The position numbers and the translations under genes were made by a program. A stretch of DNA of 64,000 bases from Halichondria panicea (lineage: Eukaryota > Porifera > Demospongiae > Suberitida > Halichondriidae): assembly GCF_963675165.1 (NCBI RefSeq), contig NC_087386.1:3350169-3414168 (forward strand). The letters are read 5' to 3'. Position 1 is the first letter of the stretch. Each line of letters begins with the position of its first letter. This document shows, in pieces, positions 1-55,100 of this stretch. The notes under the pieces are model-generated. The model searched no databases and was not told the origin of the DNA. It was given only the letters and a program-made list of their open reading frames with translations.

Positions 1-588
1 ATTAGTTTTCGAAGACGAATGCACTAGGTGTGGTCCGCATCTAGAAGGTCCTGACTCTTTAACCAAGTTCCCCGCTTTTCCAGGTGGCACAAAATCGTCT
101 GTGGCTTGCTTCAATACTCGTGATGTTTGGGAGGAGCTCAAGGACAAACAAGATGCCTATGGGGTATCGTACAAACTTTGTATCTTCTCAGGCTGCAAGA
201 ACGTGGACTCCGGAATTGGTGTATACGCTGGATCACACGACTCCTACAAGACGTTTGCCCTTCTGATGGACAAAGTGATCGAGGACTACCATGGATACAA
301 ACCAGAAGACACTCATGTATCTGACATGGATGCTGGGAAACTTGAATGCCCTCCGCTTCCAGAAGACGAAGCTGCTATGATCGTATCAACCCGAATTAGA
401 GTAGGTCGCAACCTCGATGGTTATCCTCTTGGACCAGGAGTGAGCAAGGAACAGAGGGACGAGATCATGCAGAAGGTGGTGGAGGCTTGCAACACTTTTG
501 AAGGAGACCTTAAAGGCACTTTTTATTCTCTGGAGGGAATGGAAAAAGCTACCCAGGAGCAACTAATTGCGGACCACTTTTTGTTTAA
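1..588 (+). CDS. Arginine kinase exon A (partial): linker and N-half of domain 1
   Basis: Reading frame is open from base 2. It carries a linker ([10 protein letters not shown]) and then the N-terminal half of a kinase domain: [30 protein letters not shown] and DHFLFK. The donor is gtaagt at 589. The linker aligns with the mid-exon linkers of the later exons, so the missing upstream part may hold yet another C-half, or may be the protein's start. The linker and specificity-loop region is more diverged than in the other modules. Confidence 0.9.
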
Positions 589-3500
589 GTAAGTCTGGTT
601 TACATGACATTTAATTATGCCACGGTGCGCATGCGCAAGCGAGGTATACGGTGTGTGTGTGTGTGTGCGTGCGTGCGTGTCTGTGTCTGTGTGTGTCTGT
701 GTCTGTGTAAACTGCTACAGCTGCTCTAGGATCAATGACGTTCAAAAGAGTTTCTATAGGTTGCAAGGCTCTGCTGATGCAGCCAATATTTTAGACTTGA
801 ACTTTTGGCATCGGTCGTTTTTAACAACAATCATTACCCACTGTTTGAGTTTCCATGCAGCAAAAAAACTGGTTCATCATGATAATAATGTGTGTGTATA
901 AAAGCTATTAGTAGCTTAAACCGATGTTATGTAGCTTTGGAATCTCCACCGAGGCATCAGCACATGCGGTGCTTTCATTCATACAGTTGTACTGGCAAGT
1001 TTTAGTACTGCTCAATTAGCACTCACACTAACCCTCAGCGAGTCATACGTGTAGAATGTACCTCGCGAGTACTCTACAACAGCATCATACAGGTTTCCAG
1101 CTAGCATTACGCCTGTACGTACTTTTAACTATCATCAATTAATGGCATGCACAATAAAATAGATTGTCTATTGTGTCTTGCTTGTGGTGCTTTCATGCAA
1201 TGCCAATCCAAATGTTTTTGTGTAGTCTATAGTCCCATCTCGTTATGCAGAGGAGTACGGTAAAGCTGCATGATCGTGTGCATGCTTATGTATGTTTGAA
1301 ATCTTAAATAACAATTTTACTCCAAATGTATTGGCTGTTTTACTTAGGGAGGGAGACCGATTCTTAGAAGCATGTGGCCTCAACAGAGACTGGCCTTCTG
1401 GACGTGGAATCTTCCACAACAGTGACAAGACCTTCCTGGTGTGGGTGAACGAAGAGGACCAGCTCAGGATCATCTCTATGCAAAAGGGAGCTGATATTGG
1501 AGCTGTTTTCGAGAGGCTGAGCAGAGCCGTAGCACACATTGAGACCGTTGCCAAGTTCTCCCACGATGACCACCTTGGTTACATTACTTCATGCCCTACC
1601 AACCTCGGTACTGCCTTGAGGGCTTCCGTTCACGTCAAGCTTCCAAAACTCTCGGCTAGAAAGAAAGAATTCCAGGCTATTGCTGACAAATTCTCTGTAC
1701 AGATCAGAGGCATCCATGGAGAGCACTCTGAGTCATCTGACGGCATATACGACATCTCCAACAAGAGACGTCTTGGTCGATCTGAAATAAATCTAGTCCA
1801 GGACATGTACAATGGAGTCAAAGCAATGATCCTAAGAGAGAAGGAATTAGCCGAAGGAGTACTTTGTAGCTCTGACTTGGAGGGTCCTGATAGCTTGACA
1901 GGTTTTCCTATCTTCCCCGAAGGAACAAATTCCTCTGTTGCACGATTTAATACATACAAAATATGGAACGAGCTCAAGGACGGGAAGGACATGCATGGCG
2001 TTTCATACAAGCTTTGTATTTTCTCAGGCTGCAAGAACGTCGACTCTGGAATTGGTGTATATGCTGGCTCACATGACTCATACAAGACGTTTGCCCCACT
2101 GATGGACAAAGTGATCGAGGACTACCATGGATACAAACCAGAGGATACTCATGTGTCTGACATGGATGCTGCGAAACTTGAATGCCCTCCACTTCTACAA
2201 GATGAAGCCGCTATGATTGTATCAACTCGAATCAGAGTAGGCCGCAATCTCGATGGTTATCCTCTCGGCCCGGGAGTGAGCAAGGAACAAAGAGACGAGA
2301 TCATGCAGAAGGTGGTGGAGGCTTGCAACACTTTTGAAGAAGATCTGAAAGGCTCTTTCTATCCTCTGGAAGGAATGGAGAAAGCTACCCAAGATCAGTT
2401 GATCGCCGACCATTTCCTTTTCAAGTAAGTTACGTCAATAATTAATCCTGTTCCAATTGCGTGAAGAATACTGTTCTTGTTTAATGTCGATAAACAACAT
2501 TGATTGTCATAATTTCGTAGGGACTGTGAGAATATCTCCTCTGAGGTGCTTTTCACATAGATATCTTTTCAACTAGTGTTTAAGGCACACAAAGTCAATT
2601 TGTAGTTTCTCAGGCTTTTATTCCTAAAATAGCAAGCGGATTGAGGGCATTGATAAATATATGAATATCAAGTTGAAAACACCCAACTTTCTCAATAAAC
2701 GGAAGCGCGCGCATAATAAATTTTAGTCATAATTATTTCATGACAAACAAACCATGAATTCATTCTTTTCTTTTCTTTTAGTGCCTTTAAATTATGTGTG
2801 TACCTAAACTGATAAGAGTACCCCCAAGTGATAGTCTACACTAAAAAGTGTACCCCTGAATGTTTATTTTCTATACCAGTTTACAAAAAGAGTACCCCCT
2901 AGATACAAATACGTATATACTCTAATTTTGGCACTAATATTGCGCCATATAATATTGCGCCATACCTGAGAAACTACAAATTGACTTTGCATGTCCTAAT
3001 GTAGCATAGCAAGAGTAGATAAGAGTAAGAGTGTTGAACTGCTGTAGTAATCGTGGAACCGCATTTGCCTTAACATGCGTCATCACTGTCGTCACTATTC
3101 GAGTGCTGTTAAGTAAACTGTGGTCTGTGGTATATAGCACTGAACTGCGCATGCATGTTCGGTTTCTGGGAAGTGTTAATTGCTATTAAACATAACAAAT
3201 TAGCACTGATTACTACCAAGTGATGACGCAAGAGCAGGAAAATGCTAGCAGTTAAACACTTATCTACTCTTGATAAATAAAAGAGAGGGATTAGCTTGTG
3301 GTACAATCCATGTTTCTCCGCGGTTTAATCTAGGATAATTATGGTTGCAAGAGTACAGTAGAGTCTGTGATGGCAAGTAAAGGTCCTGTATCGGGACCTT
3401 AGTTTGGATGCAAGACTGAGTAAAACCCCTAGACCAAAGTACATGTAACGTACTGTCTTTTGTGTCTTGGGTGATATCCAGAGGGGTCCTGTTCTGCCAG

Positions 3501-6500
3501 CCAATTCTATAATCCAACTAGTTATTTATAATTATTACCACTGTAAGCTTCCTGGTGCATTTACACCAACAGTATGGCTGTTGTAGAAATCAAGCCAAAA
3601 ACAGCGTTAAAAGGCAGCTTACCTCATGAATAACAGCAAAAGCCACTGGTCCAGAAACAATACCTGCCAAATAGTAACTTTAGATATATCCAGGATAGTA
3701 CCCCGATAGATTGTACACTGTACACTGACAATCACCCAAGTTGTAAACGTACATGACAGTATAACAATTACAAGACATGCATGGTACAATAATTAATGCA
3801 TTTTCAGAACAGTTTTATTTGTTGCAGAGAGGGTGATAGATTCCTGGAAGCATGTGGCCTCAACAGAGACTGGCCTTCTGGGCGTGGAATATTCCACAAT
3901 GATGACAAGAGCTTCCTGGTGTGGGTGAACGAAGAGGACCAGCTCAGGATTATCTCAATGCAAAAGGGAGCTGATATTGGAGCTGTTTTCGAGAGACTAA
4001 GCCGTGCTGTAGCCCACATTGAGACCGTTGCCAAGTTCTCCCACGATGACCACCTTGGTTACATCACTTCATGCCCTACCAACCTCGGTACTGCTTTGAG
4101 GGCCTCTGTTCACATCAAGCTTCCTAAACTCTCTGCCAGGAAAGATGAGTTCCAAGCTATCGCTGACAAATTCTCTGTGCAGATCAGGGGCATCCATGGA
4201 GAGCACTCTGAGTCGTCTGATGGTGTATATGACATCTCCAACAAGAGGCGACTTGGTCGTTCTGAAGTACAGCTAGTCCAGGATATGTATAATGGAGTCA
4301 AGGCTATGATTCAGAAGGAGAAAGAATTAGCTGAGGAAGATGTTCTATGTAGTTCTCTTCTACATGGTCCTGACAGTTTGACTGGATTTCCAATATTCCC
4401 TAGTGAAACAAAATCGTCTGTAGCTCGATTCAACACTCGTGAAGTTTGGGCCGATTTGAAAAATAAGAAGGATGAATATGGCGTGTCTTACAAGCTTTGC
4501 ATCTTTTCTGGCTGCAAAAATGTGGACTCTGGAATCGGAGTGTATGCTGGATCATACGACTCTTACAAAGCTTTTTCTCCTCTGATGGACAAAGTAATCG
4601 AGGACTACCATAGATACAAACCAGAAGACACTCATGTGTCTGACATGGATGCTGGAAAGCTTGAATGCCCTCCACTTTTAGAAGATGAAGCTGCTATGAT
4701 CGTATCAACCCGAATTAGAGTAGGCCGCAACCTCGATGGATATCCTCTTGGACCAGGAGTGAGCAAGGAACAGAGGGACGAGATCATGCAGAAGGTGGTG
4801 GACGCTTGCAATACGTTTGAAGGAGACCTCAAAGGCACTTTTTATTCTCTGGAAGGAATGGAAAAAGCTACTCAAGAGCAATTGATTGCTGACCACTTCC
4901 TTTTCAAGTAAGTTTTGTGTATACCGTATAACGGAGAATTTGGCGAATGTTTTAATTTGGCGATTGGTGACTTTTACTGAAGATTAAAAATGCCAAATTA
5001 AACTTTACCAGTATGAAATGTCGTTGCTGTAGTAAGCCAAATTAGCCATTAATTTTGGTGCTCATTCCCCAAATAATAATTATAATAGTCGCCAAATTTT
5101 TCTGTTGTATGGCACATGTACGGTGAGATCTAATGCACTATAGGTCATAAGTAATAAATTATTTATTGCTGATCATGTGACTTACATGCAGCCAATGACA
5201 TCCAAAACACTCTCAAAGAACTTTATGCTTATGTTGTGGTGTAGCTCCAAGAAGTTCGGAAGAGTCAAAATTGAATTAAATCTAGTCATGTGACTGTACA
5301 TGTACTTTTAAAATGAACTTTTTCTTCTAATACTCGTGATGTAGGGGCAGATCTATAGGGTAGCAGAGGGTGCTCAAGCAATTTTTAATTTTGTAATTTC
5401 TTGTTTTGACACAGAGAGGGTGATAGATTCTTGGAAGCATGTGGCCTCAACAGAGACTGGCCTTCTGGACGTGGAATCTTCCACAATGATGACAAGAGCT
5501 TCCTGGTGTGGGTGAACGAAGAGGACCAGCTCAGGATCATCTCAATGCAAAAAGGAGCTGATATTGGAGCTGTTTTCGAGAGGCTGAGCAGAGCCGTAGC
5601 ACACATTGAGACCGTTGCCAAGTTCTCCCACGATGACCACCTTGGTTACATCACTTCATGTCCTACCAACCTCGGTACTGCCTTAAGGGCTTCCGTTCAC
5701 ATCAAGCTTCCTAAGCTCTCAGTCAGAAAGAAAGAATTTCAGGCTATTGCTGACAAATTTTCAGTTCAGATCAGGGGCATCCATGGAGAGCACTCTGAGT
5801 CATCTGACGGCATCTACGACATATCCAACAAGAGGCGACTCGGAAGGTCAGAAGTTCAGTTAGTCCAGGACATGTACAATGGGGTCAAAGCAATGATCCT
5901 AAGAGAAAAGGAGTTAGCTGAGGGAGTACTTTGTAGCTCTGACTTGGAGGGTCCTGATAGCTTGACAGGTTTTCCTATCTTCCCCGAAGGAATAAATTCC
6001 TCTGTTGCACGATTTAATACGTACAAAGTATGGAACGAGCTCAAGGATGGGAAGGACATGCATGGCGTTTCATACAAGCTTTGTATATTCTCAGGCTGCA
6101 AGAACGTCGACTCTGGAATTGGTGTATATGCTGGCTCACACGACTCATACAAGACGTTTGCCCCACTGATGGACAAAGTGATCGAGGACTATCATGGATA
6201 CAAACCAGAAGACACTCATGTGTCTGACATGGATGCTGGCAAACTTGAATGCCCTCCACTTCCAGAAGATGAAGCCGCTATGATCGTATCAACCCGAATT
6301 AGAGTAGGCCGCAATCTCGATGGTTATCCTCTCGGCCCGGGAGTGAGCAAGGAACAGAGGGACGAGATCATGCAGAAGGTGGTGGAGGCTTGTAACACTT
6401 TTGGCGGAGATCTCAAGGGCACTTTCTTCCCTCTGGAAGGAATGGAAAAGACTACACAGGAGCAATTGATTGCTGATCACTTTTTGTTCAAGTAAGCTAA

Positions 6501-9259
6501 GTTTTGGCATGTGAGACATGTATCTACATGTGTTAAGATATGCTTGTCATAGTTACGCCTCGGGGTGTATAAACTTCGCGGAAAACCGTTGGTAATTTTT
6601 ATGGAGTTTCACCACACCTACTAGATCTACGGATTTAATATTTGTGGGTATAAATGTCACGATACATGCCTGATAAGCAAAAAAACGTGAACGTTTATAA
6701 CCTCCACTATACAGTATGGTTAGTTTTACGTTATGCATTGAAGGCTCTTCAGAATTGTGCGTATCTAAATCTGTTTCTGTTCAGCTCATTAGTCAGCCTC
6801 GCACTAAATTGCTAGATAGGTACATGGCTGAAAAGAGAGCTGCACTGTCTGTCAAAGGCAGCAGTCGATCATTGTGAAGTTCATCACTCTGTTTTGCAAC
6901 CAGTACCTTGCCTATTTAAGTTTCCGTTTAATTATCTCTCCATGCACACATTTCCCCCATAAAAGATTATGACGCGTACGTGTATCATGATGCAGCATTA
7001 ATTAATTTTGCTTCATGCAAACGGTAATGATAGACCGTGATTGTTGTTAATAAACGATCGATGCCAAAAGTTCAAGTCTAAAATTAATGACTGCATGCAT
7101 CAGCAGAGCCTTGCAGATCTCTTCTCACTCTTGCAGCTAACGTTCTAGTGCAGAGCTAACTACTAAGTAGAGTAGCAACACTCGGTGAACAAGTTTTGCT
7201 ACGCACTCTTCTGAAAAGGCTGCAATGGCATTCCAAGTAAGCAAAACTAGCAAGAACGAAGCATTATTTTGCAAATCCACGAATTAATCGAAGAAAACAT
7301 AACTAGAAACCTACTTGCACTTCATTGATCCTTGAGCAGCTGTAGCAGTCTACACACACAAACACACTACCACATACCTCGCTTGCGCATATGTGCACTG
7401 AGGCATAATTACTGTACCCTCCCAAAAAAATATACCATGTTGAATAATACGGGTATTTTGACTTGATAATACCATGTAGAATGAAGTTTGAGCATGCGCA
7501 GTAGCTAAACATTAGGATCACGTGTTCACAAAGTGAGTAGCATAATTATAGTTAGACCAAAGGTTAGTTACTGGGTACCAAGATATCATGCATCCACTAA
7601 GGTACTCTATAGTTCTGTTTGCCCCCAAATATGTTTATTAGGATTACATAAAAAGTTGTGTCTTCGTACTGGATGTTTCGAATCCTTTAAGCAAAGCTTG
7701 CATTTAAATTGTATTTCTTGGTCATGCAACATAATTATTGTACTGCATGTAGTGAACATTCAACATTAAATACAGTATAGCGGGAAATTTCCGTGGGATG
7801 CAAAGTAGTTAACACGGAAATTAAAACTCACGCACCAGTATTTCACATGCATGCAAAAGCTATTGGTGTGTGTGGTGAAACGTGAATATTAGACATTTCT
7901 GCTGAAGCCAAAATAATAGTGAAAATTTCCTGCTATAGTATACATGTAGCAGGAAATGTTCACTATTATTTTGAAAGGAATTTTAAACTAGAGTACAGTA
8001 TATCGGTATCTTAACCCTTTCCCCACTTTAGCCGCATGGCTACTGCTCATTTTCAAAAAACGATTGTGCGTGTTGTGTTAGAGCTATGCACACGCTGTAG
8101 ATACCAGCACATTCGAATAGGGGACCATTATAATTCAATAATTACGACCTGTATATAGTTACCTACACTGTACGTACGTCATAGGAAAACTTTTGTTGAG
8201 ATCTGCAGAAACTTGTCTATGAGGTCGTATCGGCAGACACTCTTTTCCCGGGAAATGTTTTCTTCACCTACACACAGGTTTACAAGTTCATGCAATGGTG
8301 GCTCATGATGTCCACTGCTGAAGTAACTAAACAAACTTATATTGAAGCTAGGAAGACTCTATAGTTATTGGTCCGTCTCAAGAGCTTCATGCATGAGCTT
8401 CTTCCTCTGTCTCTTTCTTAAACTCTGAGGAGTAGCTTCCTATCTGGCTATGATCCCAGTCACTCCCCCCCCCCCCTGACTCCACAAGGCCATAGGCATC
8501 GATATCCTTACTGTCTAGCTGCACTAGAACCTCGCTGAGATTATCCTACGAAGATCTTGTAGCAATTATCCATTGGTCAATTTTCTTTCGACAATACAGT
8601 ATGAAGCATACCTCGTGGCAGTACAATGAAAATACCACGTGAAAGAGCAGCTCACTGCATGTAGTGAACATTCAACATTAAATACAATACCTGTGCTGGT
8701 ATACCTATATATATGACTTGTGCAGTGTATATACAAACTATTTATTTCACACAGGGAGGGTGATAGATTCCTGGAAGCATGTGGCCTTAACAGAGACTGG
8801 CCTTCTGGGCGTGGAATATTCCACAACAATGACAAAACCTTCCTGGTGTGGGTGAACGAAGAGGACCAGCTCAGAATCATCTCAATGCAAAAGGGAGCTG
8901 ATATCGGAGCTGTTTTCGAGAGGCTGAGCAGAGCCGTAGCACACATTGAGACCGTTGCCAAGTTCTCCCACGATGACCACCTTGGTTACATTACTTCATG
9001 CCCCACTAACCTCGGTACTGCTTTGAGGGCTTCTGTTCACATCAAGCTTCCCAAACTCTCTGCCAGGAAAGATGAGTTCCAAGCTATCGCTGATAAATTC
9101 TCTGTACAGATCAGGGGCATTCATGGAGAGCACTCTGAGTCGTCCGACGGTATCTATGACATCTCCAACAAGAGACGGCTCGGAAGGTCTGAAGCTCAAC
9201 TTGTTCAAGATATGTACGATGGAGTCAAAGCAATGATTCAGAGGGAGAAAGAGTTGTAG
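1..9259 (+). CDS. Multi-domain (at least four) arginine kinase, 3' part of gene
   Basis: Phosphagen kinase: transfers phosphate between ATP and arginine to buffer cytosolic ATP. Exons are 1-588 (5' end outside the window), 1348-2424, 3828-4907, 5415-6491 and 8755-9259. All joins are phase 2 and rebuild a Lys codon in the motif DHFLFK|EGDRF. Each domain shows DSGIGVYAG (guanidine-specificity loop), STRIRVGR (ATP-binding Arg), [11 protein letters not shown] (catalytic Glu), SCPTNLGT (reactive Cys) and GEHSE (second catalytic Glu). CPTN and the sequence DISNKRRLG fit arginine kinase rather than creatine kinase, which usually has CPSN. Single-domain kinases are about 355 residues, and the repeat unit here is 359-360 codons. 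Four C-terminal halves are visible, so there are at least four domains. The first exon runs off the window, so more domains may precede. Known relatives have one or two domains, and flagellar creatine kinase has three. The gene is convergent with PLAA. Confidence 0.93.
589..1347. repeat. Arginine kinase intron with inverted copy of repeat R1
   Basis: Phase-2 intron. About 617-980 is a minus-orientation copy of dispersed repeat R1. It starts with the 'gcgcatgcgcaagcgaggtatacgg' end, contains a (TG)n tract at 645-705, and ends near 'ccgaggcatcagcacatgcggtgctttcat'-like sequence. The rest shows no gene. Confidence 0.7.
1348..2424 (+). CDS. Arginine kinase exon B: C-half of domain 1 and N-half of domain 2
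   Basis: A 1077-nt (359-codon) exon between acceptor ttag at 1347 and donor gtaagt at 2425. It encodes [52 protein letters not shown] and EKELAEG, then the linker and the N-half of the next domain ending DHFLFK. The second half is nearly identical to exon D (5415-6491) at the nucleotide level, suggesting recent duplication or gene conversion. Confidence 0.93.
2425..3827. other. Arginine kinase intron, no gene seen
   Basis: Phase-2 intron of 1.4 kb. It has a short duplicated word (agtgtacccc/agagtacccc, 2817-2900) and 'attgcgccata' twice near 2940-2965. I see no coding exon or full-length repeat. Confidence 0.6.
3828..4907 (+). CDS. Arginine kinase exon C: C-half of domain 2 and N-half of domain 3
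   Basis: A 1080-nt exon, one codon longer than its sisters because the linker reads EEDVLCSS instead of EGVLCSS. Acceptor ttgcag ends at 3827 and donor gtaagt starts at 4908. All active-site motifs are present. The N-half of domain 3 has SYDSYKAF where the sisters have SHDSYKTF, next to the guanidine-specificity loop. Confidence 0.93.
4908..5414. repeat. Arginine kinase intron with inverted-repeat MITE
   Basis: Positions 4922-5113 form an imperfect inverted repeat starting taccgtataacgg and ending in a degenerate complement (ttctgttgtatggca). Subterminal 'tttggcg' is repeated and inverted. It resembles the other TACCGTATA-ended hairpin elements in this window. Confidence 0.55.
5415..6491 (+). 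CDS. Arginine kinase exon D: C-half of domain 3 and N-half of domain 4
   Basis: A 1077-nt exon between acceptor acacag (ends 5414) and donor gtaagc (starts 6492). It has the same module order as exon B, with the intact motifs [28 protein letters not shown] and STRIRVGR. Small private changes include [16 protein letters not shown]. Confidence 0.93.
6492..8754. repeat. Arginine kinase intron with repeat R1 and hairpins
   Basis: The 2.26-kb intron contains a plus-orientation R1 copy (about 7020-7411). A palindromic stretch near 7905-7975 has 'aatagtgaaaatttcctgcta' mirrored by 'tagcaggaaatgttcactatt'. A C-tract lies at 8465-8477. No exon was recognised. Confidence 0.6.
7020..7411 (+). repeat. 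Dispersed repeat R1, 5'-truncated
   Basis: Begins within the repeat near 'gaccgtgattgttgttaat' and runs to the 'aggcataatta' end. Lies in an arginine kinase intron. Confidence 0.75.
8755..9259 (+). CDS. Arginine kinase terminal exon E: C-half of last domain and stop
   Basis: Acceptor cacacag ends at 8754. The exon encodes the C-terminal catalytic half with [19 protein letters not shown] and [12 protein letters not shown]. It stops (tag, 9257-9259) right after QREKEL, the natural C-terminus of a kinase domain, where the internal exons continue into the linker. This fixes the 3' end of the gene. A possible AATAAA polyadenylation signal lies near 9623. Confidence 0.92.
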
Positions 9260-36834: not shown

Positions 36835-38159
36835 TTTGACTTTCATGTTTCCAAGGCATACACTTATGTTTACACTGTTGAATGTCCGGAATGGTACTAC
36901 AAAAGGATGTTTCCAGTATGGTTGTATAATTATAACTAATTATGTGCCCCTAAGTTTATCAGGGTTTCATCCAAATTAAAACACAGTGGGAGTTTTGTTA
37001 TTGTTGCATTACAACCAATAGGTTACAATTAGGACTGGCTGGGAGTGTTAGCAGCTTTTTCGCTGGTTTTTTTATTCAAACTTGCAGGGAAAGACCCTGA
37101 CTGACATTAGTTAAAAACATGGTACATAATAATGTGTTTCCCTTACGTTTCACATTGCATTTAGTTCGATGTATGTATGTCGTGCTTCAGGAATGCGGAA
37201 TTGGGCGTGGCTACATTCGGTTAATATTTAATACACATCCAAACTGATCTACTATTGGCATAATAGCAATAATAATTTCATTAGATAGAATAAGTTGGAA
37301 GAGCTAGCTAGCTATAGGCCGGCTGTAGCCATAGATCTTGTATCTATGCTGTAGCGCTATTATAATAATTATAAGAAAGCGTCTCACATGAACAAAGAGC
37401 CAACAACGACACTACTACTCTTGGAAAGAGAAAGCAGAGACTGATTCTAACCGATAATGTAATGGCTGATCTATATGCGCACGCATTCAATCTCATTCGA
37501 TCTCTATATATAATTATACTCTCTAGCAAGTCTACTCTTCCTTCTTTCTCCTAAAATTGTACTTAACTCGGCGCGAGGCTGCATGTTCATGCATGTGCGT
37601 ATACCTAGTTTTATATATTATTATTTTGTGCATGTCCTCCAACAATGCTGTGATGGAGCACAATTTCTTCATTTCACTTGTTTTCTGGCGCTCTTCACTA
37701 TTTATATTCCTGTGGGGATTATAGGAGCGTCTACTGTAGTCTGAAACTGCAACAGTACATTGTATTATGACATTGTATGAGTCAAATTGTTGTAGGCCGA
37801 TCTACATGTATAACTGCAAGAATCTCCAGACCTGCTCTAATTATTAGGTCTGGTCCTGAGACTATACAGGTATAATTACGTAGTTAACCCACACATGAGT
37901 TAGGATGCTCAGTAGGATGTACAAATGCTGAAAACAACACCATCAACACCTGAGGGTGTCCATTCCATAACTGAAGACATCCAATCAAATTCTGAATGTT
38001 GAATTAGCACATGCCTGTGGTAATGATTCTTGTTTCTTTTTTCCTGCAGTTTTGTGTAGGTTTGCAGCTAGCGCCTTCTGAGTATTGTCAACTGTTTAGC
38101 TTGACAAGTTACAACGTTTACAATGCTTGTTGTCTAGATCTAGTTGCTTGAAAACAAAA
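36835..38159. other. Spacer between CACYBP and the T-box gene
   Basis: About 1.3 kb without repeats that I recognise. It should hold the CACYBP 3' UTR and the promoter/5' UTR of the T-box gene. An in-frame stop at 38097-38099 lies upstream of the T-box ATG. No TATA box or conserved element could be defended. Confidence 0.5.
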
Positions 38160-38752
38160 ATGAGTGTTGGCTCAGAAGACAGTCTCACAGAACTTCCACT
38201 GCCGTTTGATATTTCCTCAGCAGTTTCCCGAGCACTGAGAATAACCAGTTCCTCAGGAGCACATGAAGATGAATCTCATCAAATCCACCCCGCTAGTATT
38301 GGAAATCATTCTCAATCGCTGACTCGATATGAACCAGACTTCTGCTGCATGCAGGAGTATCCCTCTCTTTCACCCTGCTACCAGTATTCCAGGCCTCCAC
38401 CTCCTGCATACCAATGCCGAACAAATGATGCCCAACCTGGCCTTGTAAACATCAATTCCAGTAGCAGCATAGAGCAGTTTTACGAGTTTTCTGATTTATC
38501 ACAGCCACCTTTCTATGGCAGAACGCAATCCCTTTCTTACCAAAACTTTTATCCCGACAAAGAACCATACACACCACCAGCAAAAAGGCGAAGGAACACA
38601 ATCCAATGCTGTCATGATAGCGACTATTCTTTGAATGATCACATTCACGACTACTATTCTGACTGGCCATGGACAGCACTCTTGGAAAACAAATCTCTCT
38701 GGAGAAATTTTGATGAAGTTGGCACAGAGATGGTTGTTACAAAGGGAGGAAG
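38160..38752 (+). CDS. T-box gene exon 1: low-complexity N-terminus and start of T-box
   Basis: Starts MSVGSEDSLTELPLP. Proline and tyrosine are frequent (YQYSRPPPPAYQ). There is a basic patch PAKRRRN, possibly a nuclear localisation signal. The exon ends in GTEMVVTKGG with donor gtgagt at 38753, splitting the Arg codon of GRRMFP as in many T-box genes. Confidence 0.9.
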
Positions 38753-41700
38753 GTGAGTCACATGTTTAAAGAAATAATTACGAGTAACATTAGTTATGTA
38801 GTATGTCACTCATTAACTTCAAGTTACACAATCGGCTTACTGACAGTGCATGTATGTTATCATGGCTGTATACTGGTACTACACTCACTTTTTTTATATT
38901 CAGGAGAATGTTCCCCCACCTGGAAGTGAGCTTTCAGAATCTCAATCCCACCTCAGTATATTCCGTAAATTTCGAGATTATCCCTTGTGATGGAAAACGT
39001 TACAAGTTTATCAAAACAGATTGGATGCCAACTGGTCGAGCTGAGAAGAAACAAGCACAATCAGTCTATGTGCACCCTGACTCTCCCAACAGTGGCAGCT
39101 TCTGGATGAGCAAAACAGTCACCTTCAAGATGGTGAAATTGACTAACAACAAGATGCCGAAATTTAAAGACCAGGTATTGTAGATTCTAATTGTTTGCAG
39201 CATTGGAAGATATGACTCAATGATCCCTATGATTCTGAGATCCCCACACCCATGTTTCCAACAACTATATAATTATATGCACCTGCTGCTGGCGCTTTCA
39301 CAAGGAGGTGACCTCCGTATTAATTTACGTGCATGCGCATGTAGGGCTACTAAACAGGAAATGTCACTAAACAGAAACAACCAATACTGGAGGGGGCATT
39401 CGTTTTTGCTTTGCAACTGTTGAATATGTGTACTGAAAATGGCGATCCAAAGGAGGTTGGTCACACCCGCTGAGTCAGCACTTTTACCTCACTCTTGCAT
39501 TCTCGAGCGTTTATCTCTCTTGTACGCTTTACATATCCTGTTAGTTTTTGAATCGTAGTAAACACGTGTAGTTTTAAACTGACCTGGCTACGGAGAGAAA
39601 ACAGCTAGCCAAAAATCTGCAAACGATTGTAGCATTCTATGCTATATCCAGTCAGTAAACATATCTGAGAATGGAGATACTATAGCCTTCAAGTTAAGTT
39701 TGCAGCACTACTGCACCAGACATGATTTCACAGCAGTATGTAGCCATGCACGCAGCGCCTATCTCACAAGTGGTCACAAGATATTGTGACGTTGCTGCAT
39801 GTGCATGTGAAACAGTCACGTAAAGAGTGTGATATTATATATCATCTGCCTCGCGTGGAAGCAATCGCAAATCTAAGCTTGGAATGCCAGTGCATGTAGC
39901 TGCAAGAGTGAGGAAAGAGCCGCATGCGAAGCCGCGTTTCAGATCAGAGAGCAGCCAATAGTTATGGACTTTGAACTTTTAGCCCTTTTTTTTTAGCAAC
40001 CATCATGGTGGATCATTTCCCACTCTTTAGCACCCATTGCATCCCTGCATTCAAAATTACGCAATTGACACTTCGTAGGTTCATTTCATATAAACGTTTG
40101 GCGTTTCCACAGAGGCATTAGCCACCTAGCTGTGGTGTTTTCATTAACTTTTACAAATAGCCATACAATATTCAACAACATACAGACAATCCATGCAGAT
40201 CATAGATTATAATAGCACAAACAACGATCGCTAAAATAATGCTGACATTCGTAGGTTACTCGTGCAATAAGGATTGTAACAAGCAATGGCAAGGCTACTA
40301 ATTGCACGAGAACCATAAGATTTTCACACATAATTGGAAAAGCTTTGTCGTCGAATCAAAGCGCACGGGAGCACGTACGTAGCACGTTGACTATTCCGTG
40401 TGTGTTAGCAGTGTTGTTCACATGCATAATTATGCTGTTGTACGTGACTACCATGATTATTGTCTATAAAACTGCACTGTTCTGCATAATAAAAATTGAG
40501 TCAGAACAATTTGGGTTAGGCATCTATAGGCGGCTTTAGATCGTGATTCTCTATGTGAACTTCTAGCAGGTCACCGTATAACTAGAATGTTTTGCCACAT
40601 CATTCAATGGTATGAGAATTTTGCGAGTAAATCAATTCGCAAAACAAAACCTAAATTTGTAGCAAGTATACGCGATCCTTGCCAGATAGTCGCAAAGATT
40701 TTTCACCTGCATAATATCCTAGTAATTAATATGGTATGTAGGCAGAATTTATATGGTCGATCATTTAATTCCTACTCTTACCATTCCTGCATGCTAATAA
40801 TACTAAAATTAATTGGCTTGCATGTGTTTTGATTCTTGTGTGGCAATGGCAGTACTTGTGATATCTAATACGTACTAGTTAATACACCGTTGCGAGTGCT
40901 CTATGGATATTATTGGCCAAGCGGAAGTTCGATAAGCTCAGGTAGCTCGAGGCGAAGCCGAGTGCTACGTGATGCTTCGAGAACTTCCACGAGGTCAATA
41001 ATATCCATGGAGCACAAGCGTAAAACGGTGCATTAATTGTAGTTTGCAGCTTCTTGCAACTACCATGTACCAATAGCTATCGCTCTAGTATAGAGCTAAC
41101 TAGAATAGAAACCTTCTACGAACAGATTTCTGCAAGGCCTTCGACTCGGTCCCTCACAAAGACAAAATTAATTGTGGAGAATAGGCATCATAGGCGGCTT
41201 GTGGCTATATGATTTGATTGATCCTTGAGCAGGACGTACACAGACGCACAAACACAGTACCGTATACCTTGCTTGCTCATGCATGCACACCGAGGCATAA
41301 TTATGATTATATTGACCTTAATAAATACAGTGAGTACCAGACACCAGATGAGTTGGAGTTGGTGTGCTGTATGGGTTGATGGCTTTGTGACACTGTCAGT
41401 GTGCCTCTGATTCTAAAATAAACTTGAGTCTTGTTCTCTAGTGCGTGAACCTATAACGATGCATGGGCCACAAGCTAAGTTTAATGGGGAAGTGTAGTAC
41501 GTTATCTCCGTTGCCTCTTTTCACCTCAATATTACCGTATAGCGGGTAATTTTCGAGGGACAAAATATTCGTGGTTCAGCAATATTGAGACATTTCGTGG
41601 GTAATATTTTCGTGGTTGGAGCTTGCACTGCAGGTAAAGGTAGGCAAGGTCGCTTCATTCGTGGATAAATATTCGTGGTCAGACCTCCAACCACGAAAAC

Positions 41701-52100: not shown

Positions 52101-55100
52101 TGATTACATAAATAAACATTACGTAACTAGAACATTACATCCCTCCTTTACTTCGGAGAAAAGAAACAGTTATTAGAGTTCAATCAAGTTCCATGTATAT
52201 TCTGGCCATAACGCTGACAGCTTCACCTCTGCCTCGTTGGATATCGTCGTTGGACCTGTACTTGCTGAGCTGGTTGAGTTTCGTCTGGACCATTATCAAG
52301 TTCATCATCTGAACTTTCATAATCAGCTTCTGGTGTTCTCACAGAGGGTTGTATTCGTTTGAAATGGCTAACGTTTCTCGTGATATCTCTTTCATTTCGA
52401 GTTGCCGTTACCATCAAACCTTTGACCTCATCACCTTGTAAGGGGCAGGATCAAATTTAGTTGTGAATTTGTCCTTCTTCTGGCGTACCAATACAGTGTC
52501 ACCAATTTGGATGTTAGGCTGACAACTACGAGATCTCTTGTCGGCTTCATCTTCTTTTTGGCTTATGTGTCTTTGTCTCGTACCAAAGAATCCACTGGAG
52601 TGTCATTTGACACGGTTGCCTCAGGTAGCTTGGTGCCGATCTTTCGGTTGAACAAAAGTTGTGCAGGTGATACTCCTGTTGTACTGTGCGGTGTTGCACG
52701 ATAATTAAAGAGAAACTGGTAGAGAAACTTCTTCCAATCTCTTCCTTCAGCGTGGGCTGATCTAACCGCTTTCCTCTGCATTTCCTTGTGGCCATAGAGG
52801 AGTGCTCTTTCGATGTTTAATGCCTTTTTCTTGAGTGTACTGTTTGAACTCTTCTGAGAAGAATGGGGGACCATTGTCACTCTTCAAAACTTTGGGTATT
52901 CCATGAGTGGAGAAGATTCGATCGAGCTTGCTGATGGTTCCTTTTCCGGCCGTGGAGTGAACAATCTCAACTTCCGGAAATCTAGAGTATGCATCAATGA
53001 CTACCATCAGATACTCACCAGTTGGGAATGGTCCGCAGAAATCGATGTTCACAGTGTGCCATGGTTTGGGTGGCAGTGCTTTCATCTGGAGAGGTGCAGG
53101 TGGTGAGTAGGGACTGTTTGCTTGACATGCAATGCAGCTCTGAATGGTTTTCTGAACTTTCTCCTCGATTCCTGTAAACCAGACTTTCTCACGTAGCAGT
53201 CTCTTAGTCTTCACTATTCCTTGGTGACCTTCATGGGCAAGGTCGATTGATCTCTGTTGGAGTGAGCTTGGTATCACTATTCGGTTGCCACAGAGGATCA
53301 GATTAGATTCTGCGTTGACTTTGCCAAACAGTTTAGTAGCATCTGATTTCTCATACCACTTTCCAGATTGAATGACGTCCATCAATTCACACAGCGTAGG
53401 GTCCGCTTCTTGAATCTCTGTCAAGGACATTGCTTTGGGAATTGCATGTAGGCATAGGAGGTTGACATAGTCTTCTGCCATTTTCTCTGCTCTCCTTTAA
53501 TGTGGTGTGTCGGGAGAGAAAATCAGATGGGTTGTTACTTCCTTTTGTGTGTATCACATTGAATTCGTAGCCTTGTAGCCTCAAGTTCCACCGCTCGATT
53601 CTGGCAGGTGGTTTGGACTTCGGGTTGCCAAAAATCAACTGAACTGGCTTGCAATCGGTGTGTAGGTTAAATCTTTTCCCATAGAGATAGAGGTGTAGTC
53701 GTTCTACTGCCCACACGATTGCAAGAGCTTCCTTCTCTGTTTGTGAGTATCGAGTTTCAACATCTGAAAGCGATCTACTCACATACGCGACAATTTTCCG
53801 GTCTTGCTTTCCTGGTGTTGTCTGAGACAGGATTGCTGATAGACCAACTGGAGAGGCTACCTCTGTCTCTTTGGATGGGTCAAAGTATGCCTCACTGGTC
53901 AACATTTCTTTGATTTTCTCGAAAGAAGACTGATGTTCCAGAGACCACTGGAATGGAACATCCTTCTTGGTCAGGTTGCGGAGAGGATGTGATACATCAC
54001 TAAACGAAGGGATGAATTTAGCACAGTAAGTTGCCATTCCCAGAAAACTTCTGACTTCGGATGCTGATTTTGGAGGGGTCATGTTGTGTATGGCCTTCAC
54101 TTTGTCTGGATCAGCTGAGATGCCTTCTTTGGAGAATACAAATCCGAAAAATGTCAGGGATGACTTGTTGAACTCACACTTGGACTTGTTAAGGGTGAGG
54201 TTTACATCTTTAAACTTCTTCTTCAGTGCTTTGTTATGTTCTTCTCATACACGATGACATCATCACTTATATTCAAAGTACCCGGTATGTCACGAAGTTG
54301 GTCACTGATGATGTTTTGGAAAGTCTCACTGGCTGAGTTTGTGCCAAAATTGAGTCGAGTGTATCGGCGGAGACCTTTGTGTGTCACGAAAGTAGTGACT
54401 GTCTCCGTCCAATGGAATTTGGTGGTACCCAGCTTTCAAGTCAAGCTACCGTTGCTCCATTCAGATTGTGAACAAGATCGTCTACCATGGGGCTGGGGTG
54501 TCTCTCTTAGAATGGCTTTGTTTGGCATCCTCATATCGACACATAGGCGAACACTTCCATTTTTCTTTGGAGCAATGACTAGAGGAGAGACCCATGTTGT
54601 GGGACCGTCGACTTTTTCGATAATCCCTTGACTTTCCAGATTGTCGAGTTCTTCTGAAACCTGTTTTCGGAGGTGGAATGGAATGCGCCGGACTGACTGT
54701 ACGACCGGAGCGACTGAGTCATCGATGTGTAATCGGACATGTGTGTTCTTGAGTTTGCCTATCCCTTTGAACACTTTGGGAAATGAGGCAATTAGTTCTT
54801 CGTCGGTTTGCTGTTCGTTCATTTGGTTGACTTTGATACTGATTAGGTCGAGGTCTTCAGCTGTGCTGCAGTCATAGACTGGACGTGTTTTGAACCGACG
54901 TTAATGTTTGCCATAAACTGGCAGTGAGTTGTGAGTCAGATCCATACGCAAACATGCACTTTGTGGGTGAGTTCAGCTATATTGTACAATGTTTTTGTAT
55001 TTCCTCGAAACTGTCTTCATCAATGATGTTGGCTGATGCACCTGTATCTATCATCACTGTAACAGGGATGTCATTAATGCCCACAGTGACCATTGGTGCT

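Follow-up and report, generated by a model that had tools for sequence, protein, structure and literature searches.

A spliced gene predicted to encode five contiguous arginine kinase domains

We describe a single gene that probably encodes a contiguous five-domain arginine kinase (AK) of ~204 kDa, with its sites intact, which would buffer ATP locally and may be held at a membrane. Using phosphoarginine, its five domains would form a fixed string of ATP-regenerating sites. We infer the expression, activity, tethering, location and physiological role of this enzyme from its sequence. Fused phosphagen kinases already known include AKs with two domains and a flagellar creatine kinase (CK) of triplicated origin; the predicted length of five domains is what is added here.

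Structure of the gene

The window, i.e. the whole stretch of 64,000 nucleotides that was analysed, runs from base 3350169 to base 3414168 of the 7.0 Mb contig C10, in an assembly of 131 Mb and 39 contigs. Its left edge cuts the gene inside exon 2, and the start of the gene lies 2378 bases upstream of the window. The model was built after adding 9.9 kb of DNA reaching from upstream to just inside the window. The resulting sequence model has six coding exons and five introns, which give one spliced frame of 1833 residues with a predicted mass of 204.4 kDa. Its parts are listed below, with positions in the window unless preceded by C10; negative positions lie upstream.

Whole gene: C10:3347790-3359427, plus strand (spliced model)
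Exon 1: -2378 to -1702 (C10:3347790-3348466), plus strand, N-terminus and N-half of domain 1 (upstream DNA, spliced model)
Exon 2: -497 to 588 (C10:3349671-3350756), plus strand, C-half of domain 1, linker and N-half of domain 2 (spliced model, GT-AG, phase 2)
Exon 2, part inside the window: 1-588, plus strand, tail of C1 and N2 (spliced model)
Intron 2: 589-1347, plus strand, phase 2, 759 bases (spliced model)
Exon 3: 1348-2424 (C10:3351516-3352592), plus strand, C-half of domain 2, linker and N-half of domain 3 (model; PF00217, PF02807)
Intron 3: 2425-3827, plus strand, phase 2, 1403 bases (spliced model)
Exon 4: 3828-4907 (C10:3353996-3355075), plus strand, C-half of domain 3, linker and N-half of domain 4 (model; Pfam)
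Intron 4: 4908-5414, plus strand, phase 2, 507 bases (spliced model)
Exon 5: 5415-6491 (C10:3355583-3356659), plus strand, C-half of domain 4, linker and N-half of domain 5 (spliced model)
Intron 5: 6492-8754, plus strand, phase 2, 2263 bases (spliced model)
Exon 6: 8755-9259 (C10:3358923-3359427), plus strand, C-half of domain 5 and stop codon TAG (spliced model)

In the spliced model all five introns have GT-AG borders and interrupt the frame in phase 2, and reading through any one of them meets a stop codon immediately. The linkers between the domains (27-30 residues) are wholly exonic, and it is the kinase domain that the introns interrupt. The domains occupy residues 1-393, 394-755, 756-1114, 1115-1474 and 1475-1833 of the product.

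A Pfam profile search of the genome matched PF00217 to five C-halves (E 5.1e-65 to 2.5e-67) and PF02807 to five N-halves (E 1.7e-15 to 3.9e-14), both families being above the cut-off in each of the five domains. Neither family had a match in any of 14 control genomes; given this and the strong E-values, the five-domain match is not a product of chance. On C10 the PF00217 profile also gave four short matches, covering its positions 1 to 43-46; each comes from the last stretch of an N-half exon, ahead of the intron. An NCBIfam scan of three proteins returned protein-arginine-kinase matches only, all below the cut-off. The motifs NEED, CPTNLGT and GIGVYA each occur four times in the coding frame of the window, between positions 212 and 8999, and in the full model each of the five C-halves has GEHSE.

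An earlier note on this DNA had described four C-halves and four N-halves with intact motifs inside the window, in a single spliced frame with consistent intron phases. The frame and the motif counts confirm the first statement, and the uniform GT-AG borders in phase 2 confirm the second. The note had also spoken of at least four fused domains and had pointed upstream for the full count; the fusion stands, but the number becomes five, with exon 1 from the upstream DNA completing domain 1. A stop codon lies in frame four codons before the first ATG of exon 1, so this is the first coding exon. Five would be the full domain count, unless there is an alternative first exon. A sixth domain upstream was rejected on account of the in-frame stop, and the scored candidates included no more profile matches for this gene. 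No further copy or remnant of the gene was found with the Pfam profiles among the scored candidates of the 131 Mb genome, which are the best ones only, so weak remnants could escape.

Catalytic residues

Twenty positions were compared by alignment with Limulus AK, whose numbering is used here: D62, 63-68, R124, R126, H185, R193, E225, R229, C271, T273, R280, H284, R309, E314 and H315. We take these to include the 62-68 specificity loop, the D62-R193 pair, the substrate residues E225, C271 and E314, and five nucleotide-binding arginines. Domains D1-D5 are mutually identical at all 20 positions and the same as Limulus AK at 18. E225, C271, E314, R124, R126, R229, R280, R309 and the D62-R193 pair are as in Limulus AK in every domain, and the two departures, I65 and V67, are conservative changes that other AKs of the alignment (e.g. 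L019 and L020) also combine. The CKs (1qh4 and the gene on C13 of this genome), the C7 kinase and taurocyamine kinase each differ at one or more diagnostic positions. The description of the domains as active-looking in the earlier note is thus borne out by AK-type residues in all five at the positions checked, and each domain should interconvert ATP plus arginine and ADP plus phosphoarginine. With five complete domains in one frame of the spliced model, where two are enough to define the class, the predicted product is a contiguous multi-domain phosphagen kinase; its AK residues and its five domains set it apart from the three-domain flagellar CKs.

Elsewhere in the genome the scored candidates included just two single-copy kinase loci, on C13 and C7. 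The CK gene on C13 (C13:5248611-5249810; L010:2612-3811) has 1qh4 as its best solved match (E 4.2e-179), ahead of mitochondrial CKs. No separate mitochondrial-type CK appeared in the genome profile search, which can miss intron-split genes. The phosphagen kinase on C7 (C7:1730359-1731525; L011:2860-4026) is one uninterrupted frame with Gly at the position of the catalytic Glu225 (NEGD versus NEED), a divergent specificity loop and a very long branch in the tree; it begins MGCSTSN, which, like one of the two starts of the AK described below, is of the myristoylation type.

Other features were noted in passing. The last part of an open frame at 38100-38756 of the window matches the beginning of a T-box DNA-binding domain, with E 3.6e-5 and 24.2 bits versus a cut-off of 26. 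Both this fragment, just below the cut-off, and the presence of AK alongside CK are consistent with an animal genome. Two overlapping retroelement frames with an RNase H-like region and an integrase lie at 52762-54244 on the minus strand of the window. A short piece of COX1, with two TGA codons in its frame and on a nuclear-looking contig (C1:5280527-5280718; L129) may be a mitochondrial insertion.

The N-terminus and a possible membrane site

The predicted N-terminus reads MSSMGTCQSSQQ. The first ATG has T at -3 and T at +4, a weak context, and gives a product starting MSSMGTC; the second, with A at -3 and G at +4, gives MGTCQSS. We take MGTCQSS to be a match to the myristoylation consensus with a cysteine nearby, and assume the usual rules of ATG context. 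This myristoylation-type start would arise if the second ATG is used; with a start at the first ATG, myristoylation at that glycine is impossible. As a myristoyl/palmitoyl motif it may hold the chain at the membrane, where the chain would buffer ATP locally in the manner of flagellar phosphagen kinases. It is this short N-terminal motif that suggests that the five-domain AK may be tethered to a membrane or flagellum. The earlier note's proposal of a scaffolded enzyme, for example in the flagella of choanocytes or sperm, is conjecture. In the accessible portion of PMC4517888 the N-terminal extension of the flagellar AK3 of Trypanosoma brucei is likened to those of acylated calflagins, which may serve as a lead, not a test, for tethering here.

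A location outside flagella would seem as open as a flagellar one, because AK antibodies mark membranes in the spicule canals of a sponge. The excerpted text of PMC3107217 reports that anti-AK antibodies label membranous structures in the axial canal of Suberites domuncula spicules, and describes the cell processes in the axial canal as being without mitochondria. On this ground the five-domain AK might work away from flagella, for example at the membranes of cell processes that form spicules, or beneath the plasma membrane in general, a proposal that we consider possible rather than probable. Against a spicule role, the cathepsin family gives little sign that this animal forms spicules: at 18 loci of the 77 cathepsin-family matches, Ser was found in one of 15 active-site motifs (L111) and Cys in the other 14. 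Ser at this site is presumably the silicatein-like residue. At C8:493345-521186 at least seven cathepsin-family matches stand in tandem, and one of them, L111, has Ser for the catalytic Cys in the motif GSSWAF.

Exon cassettes and growth of the array

Over 332 shared codons, the ten pairs of copies have protein identities of 92.2-95.2% and DNA identities of 85.7-91.4%. Ks between whole copies is 0.40-0.84, and Ka/Ks is 0.046-0.083 in all ten pairs. The array would have grown by duplication of a frame-neutral cassette, consisting of the C-half of domain i, the linker and the N-half of domain i+1, flanked by phase-2 introns within the kinase domain. The internal exons 2-5 are 1077-1086 bases long, each a multiple of three.

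In a tree of 25 rows, with good support on 8 of its 22 inner branches and long branches for the C7 kinase, taurocyamine kinase and CK, the five domains form one clade (100/100). Inside it D2 pairs with D4 (98/94) and D3 with D5 (99/92), with no supported order among D1 and the two pairs. Since the linkers leading into D3 and D5 are 98% identical over 20 codons (other linker pairs, 53-68%), the data point to the exon 3 cassette having been copied as exon 5. Within the domains silent divergence is uneven, with 30-codon Ks ranging from 0 to saturation. When run lengths over 147 silent codons were tested by permutation, p was 0.001 for D1-D2, 0.019 for D3-D5, 0.029 for D3-D4 and above 0.07 in the other seven of the ten pairs; once corrected for ten tests, D1-D2 alone remains under 0.05. 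Exchange between the domain copies is likely, with modest support.

The same exon structure can be read as a modular gene in which phase-2 cassettes are skipped variably, giving AKs of one to five domains; its main product would possibly be N1 joined to C5 (393 residues, 43.6 kDa). All 16 ordered exon subsets between exons 1 and 6 keep the frame and have a single terminal stop, and the divisibility of the internal exons by three favours the same reading. Such frame-neutrality is, however, automatic when one phase-2 cassette is duplicated, and Ka/Ks values of 0.05-0.08 in all five copies suggest that all of them are used. We regard a modular gene as rather unlikely. We find it highly doubtful that a concertedly evolving cassette gene, with its domain number set by tissue through frame-neutral exon skipping, yields both a soluble single-domain AK and long anchored multi-domain AKs, up to a membrane-tethered rod with five ATP-regenerating sites. 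For the contiguous five-domain enzyme, the near-identical repeated exons offer a clean example of domain multiplication via phase-matched exon duplication.

Authenticity of the copies

The coding DNA of the copies is 86-91% identical, and repeats can mislead assemblers, either by stacking haplotypes or reads as extra copies or by collapsing a longer array. We consider such an artefact very improbable, given a single locus in a 7.0 Mb contig, silent divergence of up to Ks 0.84 and introns that range from 507 to 2263 bases. With blastn (E 1e-3, dust on) no collinear homology between the introns was found; the only cross-matches were three pieces that introns 2 and 5 share in opposite orientations, which look more like a dispersed repeat than common intron ancestry. 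A duplicate created by the assembly would have carried its introns along. Because the introns are unrelated and the silent sites differ between copies, duplication by the assembly was rejected for the assembled sequence. Low Ka/Ks together with high Ks and unrelated introns fits genuine copies under constraint.

Five near-identical copies in tandem could also be single-domain AK genes, independently transcribed and misread as one, but this is scarcely credible and was rejected, because each of exons 2-5 is free of stops from its C-half through to the N-half of the following domain, no two exons together yield a complete domain that has a start and a stop of its own, and a stop codon at a domain end is found in exon 6 only. 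The earlier note had named two ways in which the fusion might prove false, separate transcripts per exon pair and an assembly error. The former does not fit the sequence, in which the exons from C-half to N-half are open, and the latter is unlikely in view of the differing introns and silent sites.

Comparison with other phosphagen kinases

The exon carrying C3, linker and N4 has its best solved match in the two-domain AK 4rf6, in an alignment that spans the linker, and the whole five-domain chain matches it with E 1e-225. We take the two-domain AK structure entries (4rf6) to be the Anthopleura sea-anemone enzyme, the structure listing naming them only 'Arginine kinase'. Like the Anthopleura-type enzyme, the predicted chain has contiguous AK domains, with 56% identity per domain; unlike it, the chain has five domains instead of two and linkers ~9-12 residues longer (27-30 versus 18 in the 4rf6 alignment). 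The anemone pair is a clade of its own (100/100), adjoining the five-domain clade with 88/80 support. Because the two sets form separate clades, each with 100/100, the domains appear to have multiplied independently, unless an older common origin has been wiped out by exchange between copies. A shared origin with the anemone pair is unlikely on the evidence of these clades; copy exchange could blur older ancestry.

Conejo in 2008 is said to have treated choanoflagellate and sponge AKs. Neither among the literature matches listed, from coverage that lay mostly outside subscription journals, nor in the accessible portions of PMC6429109, PMC12467219, PMC3107217, PMC4517888 and PMC5473427 was there a five-domain AK or a multi-domain sponge AK. 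In a scan of genome contigs the best 80 of 152 relatives were all bacterial by title, mostly from metagenome-assembled genomes, and none of the 81 motif-bearing open frames in these 80 had two motif copies in one frame. A scan of viral contigs gave 13 pattern matches and no relatives. The bacterial AKs (L019-L098; best 80 of 152) are mostly Campylobacterota by title. Identity to D3 is 53-60% for bacterial AKs (12 of the best 80 aligned), 52% for Limulus AK and 56% for the anemone domains. The same 12 bacterial AKs have nearly all of the listed AK residues, with Ser at 64 in four of the 12 and at 273 in one.

Wothe in 1990 reportedly attributed the sea urchin flagellar CK to gene triplication. 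This CK is myristoylated. The chain predicted here resembles it in having several fused phosphagen kinase domains, which in the sea urchin buffer ATP in a localised manner; unlike that three-domain CK, it has five domains with E314 and H315 in place of the V and D of CK. AK3 of T. brucei is single-domain. According to the excerpts of PMC4517888 it is an AK of the flagellum with an N-terminal extension, and flagellar CK is discussed in the accessible part of PMC5473427.

The two-domain AKs known from clams and the two-domain taurocyamine kinases known from flukes are, like the enzyme predicted here with its five domains, duplicated and fused phosphagen kinases. Their genes have a bridge intron between the domains; unlike them, the present gene has its linkers within exons and its introns within the kinase domain. 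Titles given in PMC6429109 name the two-domain enzymes of both groups, and PDB 4wo8, cited with this group, is among the solved-structure matches. Fused phosphagen kinases have had repeated origins, with two or three domains. Five intact-looking, constrained sites raise the question of whether chain length itself is selected, a possible benefit being the local supply of ATP along a flagellum or membrane.
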